Assembly: GCA_031289585.1 (NCBI GenBank)
Contig: JAITPF010000016.1
Span: 1 to 59,080 of the forward strand
Direction: 5' to 3'
DNA from: Endomicrobium sp.
GTDB taxonomy: Bacteria > Elusimicrobiota > Endomicrobiia > Endomicrobiales > Endomicrobiaceae
Length of the DNA: 59,080 nucleotides
A program made the position numbers and the translations under genes. Each line of letters opens with the position of its first letter. Position 1 is the first letter of the stretch. Shown here piece by piece: positions 36,131 through 59,036 of this stretch. A model generated the notes under the pieces. The model did not search any database and was not told where the DNA came from. It saw nothing but the letters and a program-made list of their open reading frames with translations.

Positions 36131-36362
36131 CTTAAAAGCAAAAACATATTTTTCTATGTCATACCCGAATGCCTTTAATCGGGTATCCATGTTTTAAAAA
36201 GTTTTAAACTAGAGCCTGTAGTGACGGGCATTCACGTCAAAAAATGGCAACAACAAACATGGATTCCCGTCTTCACGGGAATGACAAGAGACTGTCGCTA
36301 AGTCTCATTTGTTAATTGCCAAGTCCGGAAGGGACACAGCAATCTTTTCTTTCTTTTGCAGT

Positions 36363-36418: not shown

Positions 36419-36424
36419 GTCCAT

Positions 36425-36527
36425 CATTTCGCACTGACGGAGGCAGTGAGGGTTTGCGTAGCAATCGAGACAAATTTTTTAACGACACAGATTGCTTCGT
36501 CGGGACCCTGTCCCTCCTCGCAATGAC
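36425..36527. repeat. Family A palindromic repeat pair
   Basis: ...agattgcttcgtcgggaccctgtccctcctcgcaatgacgac. Confidence 0.75.
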
Positions 36528-37983: not shown

Positions 37984-38027
37984 ATATCCTGTAAAACCCT
38001 TAAAACAGAACAATTGTTTTTTTGCTG

Positions 38028-38126
38028 TCATTGCAAGGAGAGACAAAGTCCTAACGAAACAATCTCTGCCGTAAGAAAAGAACAGCCTACCACGCTTACT
38101 TCGTAGGCTTGCAATGACGAATAAGA
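38028..38126. repeat. Family A repeat pair read through by the annotated ORF
   Basis: tgtcattgcaaggagagacaaagtcctaacgaaacaatct...cacgcttacttcgtaggcttgcaatgac. Confidence 0.85.
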
Positions 38127-40109: not shown

Positions 40110-40412
40110 CTGTTATTGCGCACTGTCAAGGGCAGCTAGGGTTGCGAAGCAACGTGGCAATCTTTTTTTAACGACGTAGATTGCTTCGTCCTTTTAGGAC
40201 TCGCAATGACAGCAAAAAAGATGTCACTCCCGCGCATGCGGGAAATCCATATTAACTGACATCTTACAACAACGTGGATACCCGATTAAAAACACTCGGG
40301 TATGGACCACGGACTTATGATATTGGTCGACATTGCGAGCCTACGAAGTAGGCGTGGCAATCTGTCCTTAACAACACAGATTGCTTCGCCCTTTTAGGGC
40401 TCGCAATGACAA
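40110..40412. repeat. Cluster of family A and B palindromic repeats
   Basis: gcgaagcaacgtggcaatct, agattgcttcgtccttttaggactcgcaatgac, cattgcgagcctacgaagtaggcgtggcaatct. Confidence 0.85.
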
Positions 40413-40679
40413 TCATAGTTTCATAGTTCTGCCATAAGATTCTGGTCAATTCTGATCATCAATTTACGAAGTTGCAAAGCAACATGACTACTAACTACAT
40501 ACTACACAAAATACTATCCCTCTCTACTTGGTAGATAGGGTAAGAGTGGGGTTATTGTTCATCTCTAATTTAGTCGGATATATCAATTATCCCATTTTAT
40601 ATACTAGTTACGCAAGAGTCCTATCGTGTAATAAAGATGTAAAAAATAGTGCGATAATTTGCAATAATAAACAATAATC

Positions 40680-43431: not shown

Positions 43432-44817
43432 TTATTCATATCTAATGTAAACAGACTTAATCCTCCATAAAATAACCCATAACACACAAAATCCTACTAA
43501 AATAGGTATTATCGACTTCATTATAATTTCATTTGTATTAGAAACATCCTTTACAATTATATAAAAATAAACAATAGCTAATACATAAACTATCGCTATA
43601 ACAAGTGGTAAATATTTCTTCATATACTTAAAAAATCTGCTTCTAAAAATAATAAACACAACAGTAACCCAAATTATAAATGATATCACATATTTTAAAC
43701 TTGCATTCTTAATGTAATAATAAAAAGCAGCAAACGGTTCAAAAATAAATCTTAAAATTGAACAGGACTGTTTCTGTCTGTATAAAACTACTTTAGTTTG
43801 TGGTTTTTTTGTAAGTTGCTCCTGTATATTTTCTGAAACATTACCTTTGAATACAGTCCAAACATCAGACATATACCCCCAACCATGCCAATCTGTAACA
43901 CCAAACATTAGAAGATTGTTTTCTTTTGAAAAATTTATCATAGACTTTCGTTCATTTTCATCAAAATTCCTATATCCACAATTATATATTTCAAAGCCGT
44001 CAATTCCAAGATCTCTAAGTTCTGCAAAAGTTTGTTTATGCCATTTCCACCAGTGAGGCATAATAACAAGTATTTTGTTTTTATGCGCTTTTTTTATGAT
44101 TTTCTCTAACGTAAGATTTTCATAACTTTGTCCGTCGAATTCTTTAGATGCCAAAAGTAGAACAGATACTCTATTTTTAGTCTGTATCTGTATTCCAGGA
44201 TAAACATCCTTATACAATGTGTCTTTTGGAAACATTGTAAACCCTTGTGTTTGATTGTGTTCTGTATTAAAGAATGCGTCAAATCCTTGCCATATATGCG
44301 CTTTTAAACTTATTCTAGCAGGCGCAATATTGTCGTGAGAACTTATTGTATGAGAATGAATATCAATTGCAATATAATCTTTAGGTTTTTCCAATCTAGG
44401 ACCGGCTATAGGAATCAAAATTGTAAAAGAAAAAATAGTCGCAAGAAGCATTAATGAATAAAATATATTGTTTAGAATCTGTTTCAAACTTTTTTTCTTA
44501 ACTAAACAATAAATTAAAACTAAAATTATAACCCATAAAACCCAAGAAATTATAGCAGGCAAGTAAAAATTTCTATTTAAAGTTAACACATAAAACGAAA
44601 AAGAATAAAAAGGTTCTATAAAAAACCTTATTTTAGGCCATGCTATTGAAAAATCTGGAGTCTCTAATCCTGTTATTAAATCATAAAGCATTATAGGAGA
44701 GTAAAAAACAATACTTGATATTGCAATTAAACACAAACTAACTAACAACAAGTTAAATGGTTTCAATACTTTCATCACAGCTCCAATTTCTCTAAAATAG
44801 ACCTCTTGCGAAACCAA
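43432..44817 (-). CDS. Membrane protein with PHP-type phosphoesterase domain
   Basis: AIDIHSHTISSHDN...FNTEHNQ...MPHWWKWHK...GVTDWHGWG flanked by TMs. Confidence 0.75.
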   Translation of the reverse strand: MVSQEVYFREIGAVMKVLKPFNLLLVSLCLIAISSIVFYSPIMLYDLITGLETPDFSIAWPKIRFFIEPFYSFSFYVLTLNRNFYLPAIISWVLWVIILVLIYCLVKKKSLKQILNNIFYSLMLLATIFSFTILIPIAGPRLEKPKDYIAIDIHSHTISSHDNIAPARISLKAHIWQGFDAFFNTEHNQTQGFTMFPKDTLYKDVYPGIQIQTKNRVSVLLLASKEFDGQSYENLTLEKIIKKAHKNKILVIMPHWWKWHKQTFAELRDLGIDGFEIYNCGYRNFDENERKSMINFSKENNLLMFGVTDWHGWGYMSDVWTVFKGNVSENIQEQLTKKPQTKVVLYRQKQSCSILRFIFEPFAAFYYYIKNASLKYVISFIIWVTVVFIIFRSRFFKYMKKYLPLVIAIVYVLAIVYFYIIVKDVSNTNEIIMKSIIPILVGFCVLWVILWRIKSVYIRYE

Positions 44818-44892
44818 GATTCAAAATTAAAGCAAACTACAATTAAACTAAACCTTAACCCAAGCTACTTCCTACTATAAAATGGATATTTG

Positions 44893-45187
44893 TTGTCATT
44901 GCGCACTATTAAAGACAGTGAGGGCAAAACACAGTCTTCCGTATTTTTCGTGGCGATCTTTCCTTTTAGTTCTGCTCGTCATTGCAAAGCCCGAAGGACT
45001 ATGGCAATCTTTCTCTTTTAGTTCTGTTCGTCATTGCGAGTTGCGTAGCAACGTGGCAATCTTTCTTTTAACGACACAGATTGCTTCGTCCTTCTAGGAC
45101 TCGCAATGACGACGGGAGTTACCGACGCAAATTGCTTCATCAGGACTTTGTTCTTACCCTCGCTGCCTTCGGCAGTGCGCAATGACA
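44893..45187. repeat. Array of family A palindromic repeats
   Basis: cattgcaaagcccgaaggactatggcaatct, cattgcgagttgcgtagcaacgtggcaatct, agattgcttcgtccttctaggactcgcaatgac. Confidence 0.88.
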
Positions 45188-57182: not shown

Positions 57183-57496
57183 GTCATTGCGAGCCTACGA
57201 AGTAGGCGTGGCAATCTTTCTCTTTCAATGGCACAGATTGCTTCGTTGGGGCTCTGCCCCTCCTCGCAATGACGACAAAATAAGGAGTCATTCCTGTTTT
57301 CACAGGAAAACGGACACGGCACTTTTTGGTCTTGGTCGTCATTGCGAAGCCCGAAGGGCTGTGGCAATCTTTTCCTTTAGTCCTGTCCGTCATTACCAAG
57401 CCCGAAGGACTGTAGCAATCTTTCTCTTTTAACGACACAGATTGCTTCGTTGGGACTTTGTCCCTACCCTCTCTGCCTTCGGCAGTGCGCAATGAC
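57183..57496. repeat. Array of family A palindromic repeats with a short B-type hairpin
   Basis: Units at 57183-57217, 57235-57273 (inv), 57338-57370, 57389-57421, 57439-57496 (inv). Confidence 0.92.
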
Positions 57497-57744
57497 GACA
57501 AATCTCTAGTATTGTCATTGACAACCCTTTTCAACTTGTCTTTTTAGCACTACTTTCAATGATTTAATTATCCATTTTATATACCGACTTCGCAATAGGT
57601 CTAATGTTTATTAACTGATAATTATTTTATCAAAAAAAAGTTCTTGAGCATCTTTAACATTAACTCATCATGTAAAACGTTTGAAGATGTAAATGACAAG
57701 ACCGCTGAATATTATGAACAACCTCTAATTTATTAAAATGCAAA

Positions 57745-57772
57745 AGGCTGAAAGAATTATCTCTCTCAGCCT
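57745..57772 (-). terminator. Terminator hairpin downstream of the minus-strand secreted-protein gene
   Basis: aggctgaaag...ctctcagcct with T-run on minus strand. Confidence 0.55.
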
Positions 57773-57996
57773 CTTTACATTTAATATACTGCGCTTACAC
57801 CACTTCTGCTCTTCCTAATCAAAAACAACATTTACAATAAACTCTTGTTTTTATACAAATCAAACACATCTATTCCTTGTTTTTACTTATTCTGTTTCGT
57901 ATCTATCAACAGCATTATTCTTTCCGTTTCTTATTTTGTTTATCTTATTTGCATGTATTTCTGCTTTTAAAAACTTATACCGGGTTACAAGAATAA

Positions 57997-58398
57997 TTAT
58001 GTCTCTTTTTCTTCTTCATCAGTATCGGTATTTTGTAGTTGCGCTGCTGCGGATTTTTTTTGCAATGATGAACAAATCTCATCCTTATGATACTCATTAC
58101 TTGCTCTAAATCCCTTTCCAGTTGCTGATATCGTTGCACCAACTGCTGTAGTTCCTGCTCCTATCGCTCTATAAAAATTATTATTCTGGTATATTCCACA
58201 CATAGTTATCAAACTACCCATTGCACCTATCCCAGTACCAAATGCATCAACTGTCTTATACAACCAAATCCGCCAATTAGCATTACTTATACACTGTTCT
58301 CGTGTCTCGGCAAATAAAGGCGAAACTACAGAAATGTTCAAACACATAACAATCGCAATCACAAACAAACTTTTTGTCATTTTCGATCTGCTTTTCAT
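57997..58398 (-). CDS. Hypothetical secreted protein with Gly-rich hydrophobic segment
   Basis: Signal peptide MTKSLFVIAIVMCLNISVVSPLFA; GTGIGAMGSLITMCGIYQ...GAGTTAVGATISATG. Confidence 0.72.
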   Translation of the reverse strand: MKSRSKMTKSLFVIAIVMCLNISVVSPLFAETREQCISNANWRIWLYKTVDAFGTGIGAMGSLITMCGIYQNNNFYRAIGAGTTAVGATISATGKGFRASNEYHKDEICSSLQKKSAAAQLQNTDTDEEEKET

Positions 58399-58400
58399 AA

Positions 58401-58524
58401 CATCTCTCCTTTTTTTATTGCGTTTATAACGCAGTTTTTCAAGAAAACAAACTTCTTGACTAATTTTATTTTATTAAATAAAGTTTAGGTTTAACCGCCA
58501 AGTTGTGAAAAAGTTGTGAAATTT
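58401..58524 (-). promoter_or_regulatory. Upstream module copy 2
   Basis: AAATTTCACAACTTTTTCACAACTTGGCGGTTAAACCTAAACTTTATTTAATAAAATAAAATTAG...GGAGAGATG on minus strand. Confidence 0.6.
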
Positions 58525-58570
58525 CAATACGCTTAAAACTACCTATTATTGGTTTAATTAGAATAACAAC

Positions 58571-58627
58571 AACATGGATACCCACTGGAGTTCACCCTTG
58601 AACGTCTTAATTAGGAGCGGAAATGAC
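58571..58627 (-). repeat. Family B palindromic repeat
   Basis: aacatggatacccactggagttcacccttgaacgtcttaattaggagcggaaatgac. Confidence 0.75.
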
Positions 58628-58705
58628 AAAATGTAAGGCAGTGTGTACTCGCCATCAATAAAAACATTCTACGATAAACTCCAGCAAGGATTTACGTTTT
58701 CCGTA

Positions 58706-59036
58706 GTCATTGCAAGGAAAACAAAGTCCCAACGAAGCAATCTGCGTCGGTAACTCCCGTCGTCATTGCGAATCGACGAAGTCGATGAAGCAATCTATGT
58801 CGTTAAGGACAGGTTGCCGCGCCTACTTTGTAGGCTCGCAATGACAGACAGGACGGATTCCCGTTTTCACGGGAATGACATCTTATTTTGCTGTCATTGC
58901 GAGGAGGGGCAGAGCCCCAACGAAGCAATCTGCGTCGGTAACTTCCGTCGTCATTGCGAATCGACGAAGTCGATGAAGCAATCTATGTCGTTAAAAAGGA
59001 AAGATTGCCGCGCTAACTTCGTTAGCTCGCAATGAC
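58706..59036. repeat. Array of six family A repeats
   Basis: Units at 58706-58743, 58762-58796, 58811-58845 (inv), 58893-58931, 58950-58984, 59002-59036 (inv). Confidence 0.93.

Follow-up and report, generated by a model that had tools for sequence, protein, structure and literature searches.

The hairpin repeats scattered through the 59,080-nt stretch of Endomicrobium DNA analyzed here (the window) are built from two kinds of unit, L and R, which almost always lie head to head as mixed pairs and whose inner stems vary in sequence while staying self-complementary. With a probability of roughly 60%, they are non-autonomous elements of a REP/REPIN-like type, nearest to the CGTC-tagged REPs, recognized in the folded single-stranded state by way of their outer frame, with heterodimers favored. 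The near-universal pairing of different hairpins, together with variable stems that remain paired, suggests a candidate enzyme that reads folded single-stranded DNA.

After the 2013 survey, the CGTC-tagged REPs were left without a mobilizer, and their heterodimers without an explanation beyond a suggested escape from palindrome destruction. New here are the rule that dimers join an L to an R unit and the free combination of stems. As a study system this genome is sharp: its two half-sites can be told apart, its stems combine freely, and the signal of preserved pairing is measurable. Specific predictions for assays of binding and excision follow from the L+R rule and from a stem that is paired but otherwise free, and the gap in copy number between this genome and 41 congeners offers a route to the responsible enzyme.

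Unit anatomy and distribution

In each unit a YGTC tag is joined to a 5-bp foot of fixed sequence (ATTGC/GCAAT), followed by a small internal loop, also fixed, and a variable inner stem of 5-6 bp capped by a tight 3-nt loop. The internal loop sets GA against GTG, GCG or GAA, or in some R units GAGGA against GACGAA/AACGAA. Two conserved frames can be distinguished by the base immediately preceding GCAATC and are called L and R here: L units have the form GTCATTGCGA-stem-loop-stem'-G[T/C]GGCAATC, and R units GTCATTGCGA-...-GAAGCAATC. Founder stems of the L type are GCCTAC, AGCCC, GTTGC, GCTAAC and GATTGC, together with CTGCC in a longer unit form; those of the R type are GTCCT, GCTCT and ATCGAC and, within an extra GGA...GAC/AAC frame, AGGAC, GGGAC and GGGGC. 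Among 196 outer ends the first tag position is C in 114 and T in 73, followed by G in 180, T in 188 and C in 181, the GTC being partly favored by the unit search; the base after GCAATC is T in 137 of 150 units. The foot was mostly fixed by the search, so that its conservation is only partly independent. Inner stems of at least 5 bp occur in 39% of loosely defined units, against 1.6% when the inner sequences are shuffled. The first-pass annotation of this DNA had described a single palindromic family with varied stems; the variety is real, but part of it is accounted for by the two frames rather than one type. All the hairpins it quoted lie within one or two bases of where it placed them, including GTTGC-GTA-GCAAC, which begins at 45030 and not at 45029. 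The units mapped in the window are listed below.

Table 1. L and R units mapped in the window (positions count from its first letter).
Position	Strand	Unit	Stem arms	Loop	Remarks
36423..36466	+	L, long, decayed			CTGCC type
36490..36527	-	R	GGGAC/GTCCC		Partner of 36423
38027..38064	+	R, decayed			Upstream of predicted lipoprotein gene
40179..40210	-	R	GTCCT/AGGAC		Second dimer of PFK-TyrRS spacer
40329..40362	+	L	GCCTAC/GTAGGC		PFK-TyrRS spacer
40379..40410	-	R	GCCCT/AGGGC		Head-to-head partner of 40329
44978..45009	+	L, decayed			Tandem with 45030
45030..45061	+	L	GTTGC/GCAAC	GTA	
45079..45110	-	R	GTCCT/AGGAC		Head-to-head partner of 45030
57183..57216	+	L	GCCTAC/GTAGGC	GAA	
57236..57273	-	R (GGA..AAC frame)	GGGGC/GCCCC	AGA	Head-to-head partner of 57183
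57338..57369	+	L	AGCCC/GGGCT	GAA	
57389..57420	+	L, decayed	AGCCC/GGACT		One C-A mismatch; tandem with 57338
58706..58742	+	R, decayed			First in R-R-L array 1
58762..58795	+	R	ATCGAC/GTCGAT	GAA	Array 1
58812..58845	-	L	GCCTAC/GTAGGC	AAA	Array 1
58893..58930	+	R	GGGGC/GCCCC	AGA	Array 2
58950..58983	+	R	ATCGAC/GTCGAT	GAA	Array 2
59003..59036	-	L	GCTAAC/GTTAGC	GAA	Array 2; layout as array 1, stems differ

The triloops favor the form C-GNA-G, a rule that is not universal. GAA is the loop in 92 of 112 L units of this genome (two large L groups), with GTA the next GNA form; the R units deviate, their loops being mostly AAA or AGA. In the main unit groups of contigs from a viral collection, GNA loops make up 20/50, 28/69 and 13/27, with a closing pair that is mostly C-G, and outside this genome the N of GNA varies with G and A constant. 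GNA loops closed by G-C pairs form extraordinarily stable DNA hairpins (PMC4686876).

As contig 4, the window belongs to a draft genome of 1.28 Mb that is 86% complete. Exact copies of GTCATTGCGA number 163 in the whole genome, against 2 for a reversed control; the window itself has 24 matches (at most one mismatch) against 2.3 expected, and 254 units could be classified in genome stretches totaling about 1.23 Mb. For a reduced endosymbiont genome, this gives about 150-300 hairpin copies. At contig starts the repeats reach about three times their average frequency (10 of 49 within 500 bp), so their number in the draft is probably an underestimate. The 41 other genomes of the genus have 0-7 copies each, and scattered genomes elsewhere in the Elusimicrobiota have up to 411, indicating that the family is patchy and amplified in this species, and that amplification in this lineage postdates its split from the congeners. 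Copy-rich genomes within the same family are G190, G127 and G093, with few units in the stretches read. R-type units are also present on plasmids whose host genera belong to the Alpha- and Gammaproteobacteria, the Cyanobacteria and, in one case, the Bacteroidota. Raw-sequence literature queries gave no publication on these repeats among the matches listed, and the repeats go unmentioned in the examined passages of an Endomicrobia genome paper. The tyrosyl-tRNA synthetase of the window is about 80% identical to those encoded in draft genomes of Endomicrobium and Candidatus Endomicrobiellum, and the gene order around it is shared, which places the organism in the Endomicrobiaceae of the Elusimicrobiota, a group of termite-gut symbionts (PMC11257099).

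Other repeats are found in the same surroundings. A second, GTCATTCCCGTGAAAACGGGAATCC-like palindrome lies beside GTCATTGCGA arrays at 58850-58882, 36258-36290 and 40225-40262 of the window, and is nearer the classical CGTC REP design than the GTCATTGCGA family is. Another short sequence, TATCCCATTTTATATAC...TTACGCAA..., is dispersed and apparently recurs close to hairpin arrays (40585-40625, 57565-57600, 44800-44882). In the Endomicrobium draft Po218_bin113 (L114 12336-12698) there are several direct copies of GTCATTGCGGGCTTGACCCGCAATC-type repeats, which share the tag and foot, have a simpler stem and are possibly ancestral to the family studied here.

Pairing of the inner stems and the L+R rule

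The strongest covariation is between genomes rather than within this one. Among 36 distinct cross-taxon L units of one length and several sources, covariation of the inner stem scores 0.447 against 0.133, a value reached in 0 of 500 shuffles; 93.7% of cells pair, against 75.5% when shuffled, all six inner pairs vary on both sides, and sliding the partners by one to three columns lowers the score to 0.03-0.09. In this set the search itself imposed the invariance of the outer helix, which is not evidence of conservation. Distinct units from the viral-collection contigs, which were chosen with the outer arms fixed and the inner stem free and are thus uninformative on outer-arm conservation, have paired fractions of inner cells of 0.80 (R) and 0.84 (L) against 0.56 and 0.52 when re-dealt; the extra-frame groups are smaller and their signal weaker. 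The covariation that the first-pass annotation proposed looking for is thus significant in structure-blind tests.

Within this genome, units were picked by their outer arms alone, blind to structure, and their inner arms were re-dealt among units of the same length. For the three large groups, the fraction of paired inner cells is 0.86 in the 5-bp L group, 0.96 in the 6-bp L group and 0.87 in the extra-frame R group, against 0.64, 0.72 and 0.76 after re-dealing. Counting distinct arm pairs once makes the contrast weaker: 0.745 against 0.598 re-dealt for 5-bp L (largest shuffle 0.727), 0.845 against 0.545 for 6-bp L (largest shuffle 0.750), and for extra-frame R a value of 0.743 that fails to exceed the largest shuffle (0.771). 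Around some eleven founder stems, the distinct variants include 18 single changes that break a pair and 8 that leave a wobble, 10 double changes at different pairs, 7 exactly compensating doubles, and 15 variants with three or more changes. Exact compensation in 7 of 17 doubles exceeds the one in nine expected under a rough and generous null (p=0.0015), copies within one genome being non-independent; simple decay therefore accounts for most variants, not all, and some of the compensated ones could be recombinants between founder types. The first-pass claim of compensatory change that preserves pairing is borne out by these doubles and by the cross-genome signal, but most of the pattern within the genome reduces to founder stems and uncompensated decay.

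Neighboring units are oriented head to head in 54 cases, tail to tail in 5, and head to tail in 47. Of the head-to-head neighbors, 53 of 54 join an L to an R unit, where random pairing of the observed units gives 47% (p=1e-16). They are joined, as first described, by a variable linker ending AACGACACA, 16-20 nt long in 44 of the 54. Stems combine freely across this junction: of the 36 possible combinations of six L and six R classes, 26 are seen, with no association detected (permutation p=0.35). The two arrays at 58706-58845 and 58893-59036 both consist of R, R and reversed L units with a nearly identical first linker, and have the ATCGAC unit in common, the other two positions differing in stem; three more R-R-reversed L arrays elsewhere in the genome have other stem combinations. 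Stem swapping was accordingly well described as modular by the first-pass annotation. Both frames recur with other stems in other Elusimicrobiota (G042, G051), where head-to-head dimers are again mixed; in G051 the family also forms exact tandem arrays, with steps of 42 bp and 35 bp (L248, L250). In the viral-collection contigs, 50 of 51 distinct dimers are heterodimers and one a homodimer, where random re-pairing expects about six near-identical pairs; the searches left inner sequences free but fixed part of the tails, which makes L-L, L-R and R-R frequencies incomparable in this set. Dimer members in the Endomicrobium genome are nearer the founder sequences than singletons are (mean distance 1.51 vs 2.04, p=0.036). 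None of the copies has been seen moving; if the family is mobile, its usual unit of spread is the head-to-head heterodimer L-linker-R.

The predicted single-stranded fold of a natural heterodimer, with a few extra flanking bases, has an energy of -28.8 kcal/mol, against -45.2 for a made-up L-L homodimer, which is predicted to form a single uninterrupted 35-bp stem. These values fit the suggestion that heterodimers evade enzymes that destroy long palindromes (PMC3733652). In the preferred reading, a unit would fold while its DNA is single-stranded, during replication, repair or uptake, and a putative enzyme acting in trans would recognize tag, foot and internal loop by their sequence. It would need only pairing from the inner stem, leaving stems to drift freely as long as they pair; homodimers, as perfect 35-bp palindromes, would be lost, and heterodimers would survive.

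Placement, candidate mobilizers, and alternative explanations

The spacer between the PFK and TyrRS genes is 591 bp long in this genome and holds two dimers; in 13 of the 14 relatives shown it is 34-116 bp, and in the remaining one 343 bp. This reflects either a gain of DNA here or a loss in the relatives, gain being likelier given the lineage-specific amplification. The flanks are too diverged among relatives for a base-exact empty site to have been obtained, and the direct repeats bordering 48 head-to-head arrays do not exceed the length expected by chance. Clusters lie between tandem genes in 73 cases, convergent genes in 15 and divergent genes in 13, the same proportions as all intergenic regions (380, 72 and 76).

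The search for a REP-associated transposase proposed in the first-pass annotation gave no NF047646 match in the 86% complete genome. None of 30 RAYT loci inspected in the phylum is flanked by a repeat at short range; the nearest dimer lies at 466 bp from one of these loci and at about 1.2 kb from another. The former, in genome G043, is an intact RAYT with a GTCATTGCGA dimer downstream (L091 1501-2450), the only close RAYT neighbor among the 30. RAYT genes are commoner in copy-rich genomes of the phylum (21/28 vs 87/220, Fisher p=0.0005), an association in which genome size and kinship are confounders, and RAYT is absent from seven copy-rich genomes. On these grounds RAYT is rejected as the mobilizer, though it may have had a past role or one in trans. 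Other candidates fare no better. Y1 matches are stop-riddled IS200-like remnants, one of them (C13) 109 bp from a repeat, which is unremarkable at this repeat density; contig 43 carries two IS200-type transposase remnants, riddled with stops, along with a typical C-rich hairpin (L001 1400-1900; L045 8003-10724). IS110 copies are broken or partial, and only one shares a stretch with repeats, 2.8 kb off. REPtron-like genes flanked on both sides amount to five ORFs, all housekeeping-type or Fic-like. In all, no intact candidate for a cognate enzyme was found in the 86% complete draft.

That result is what would be expected if the repeats were passive debris, the decaying copies of an extinct ancestral element shuffled by recombination between repeats. 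Many copies are indeed decayed, and three-unit arrays with a common layout and linkers but different stems are what array recombination would give. Against this, 112 copies in the structure-blind set retain exact founder stems, and the 0-7 copies in congeners imply amplification after the split; the debris explanation is accordingly held to be doubtful, though it retains some weight. Another possibility, an unlikely one, is that template switching between the arms of quasi-palindromes copies mutations across, keeping the stems paired without selection or a reading protein. The compensated variants would suit such a process: they are pairs of transitions, they are almost only single copies with no sign of spread, and single-change variants have no wobble bias on the tagged strand (A-C 15, G-T 10), as expected if no RNA strand is selected. 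Yet it explains neither why the frame is invariant, nor the L+R rule, nor the amplification in a single species, nor the GNA loops, and the 18 broken and 8 wobble single variants stand uncorrected against 7 corrected.

The absence of a wobble-preserving excess tells against a function at the RNA level, in which transcribed hairpins protect or terminate mRNAs and their stems are under selection in the transcript. The units are intergenic and fold stably, and many REPs have been suggested to be transcribed (Di Nocera et al., 2013; PMC3733652). However, positions downstream of genes and convergent ends hold no excess of units, Rfam gives nothing above threshold except a tRNA, and presence is species-specific; a terminator or mRNA role is rejected for want of any context bias among intergenic gaps, and RNA-level elements in general are considered improbable. 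Returning to elements recognized as folded single-stranded DNA, a more ambitious version may be put forward only tentatively, as it is probably not correct in full: the units would be a widespread, structure-read DNA site, with the frame YGTC-ATTGC-GA ... G[T/C]G or GAA-GCAAT, a free-but-paired stem and a stable loop, moved by a putative non-RAYT single-strand recombinase or transposase new to CGTC REPs, and with stems exchanged as modules between heterodimers.

Comparison with known repeat systems

The REPINs of Pseudomonas and their RAYT transposases (Bertels and Rainey, 2011; PMC3116915) share with this family the inverted doublet as unit, intergenic location, compensatory changes, and better conservation of doublets than of singlets. 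Their tag is GTAG rather than YGTC, their spacer varies and the REP palindrome is conserved, whereas here the stem within each REP varies, and they have a cognate RAYT, of which none was found in this genome. Classical MITEs produce a target-site duplication; none was detected here at array borders. Integron attC sites (PMC2727003) offer a parallel in design: they are recognized as a folded single strand, and sequence is little conserved over the remainder of the hairpin. The likeness is one of working principle and not of membership, and no cassettes occur here. The d(GCGAAGC) mini-hairpin with its GNA loop (PMC4686876) matches the loop and closing pair of most L units, and of many units elsewhere, but is a physical motif and not a repeat family, and most R units here have AAA or AGA.

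The closest described kind is the CGTC-tagged REP superfamily, including RPE-4 and RPE-6 of Rickettsia and dRS3 of Neisseria (Di Nocera et al., 2013; PMC3733652), so that the family, as the first-pass annotation held, is not new as a kind, being widespread across genomes and close to these REPs. Common to both are a CGTC or TGTC tag left unpaired at one end, a stem that begins with two pairs of A-T residues (here those of ATTGC/GCAAT), a predominance of head-to-head dimers with tail-to-tail ones rare and heterodimers common, and no associated transposase (here within an 86% complete draft). The 47 head-to-tail neighbors are unlike the described CGTC families. In families CGTC-1 to -4, the stem is 8-9 bp, the loop 4-5 nt and the short unpaired tail mostly CCA; here a 5-bp foot, an internal loop and a 5-6-bp stem carry a 3-nt loop, and there is no CCA tail. 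The five phyla listed in that survey do not include the Elusimicrobiota. Because tag, A-T start and arrangement fit, and stem, loop and tail do not, these repeats are best regarded as a variant of the CGTC-tagged REP kind rather than as a member of families 1-4.
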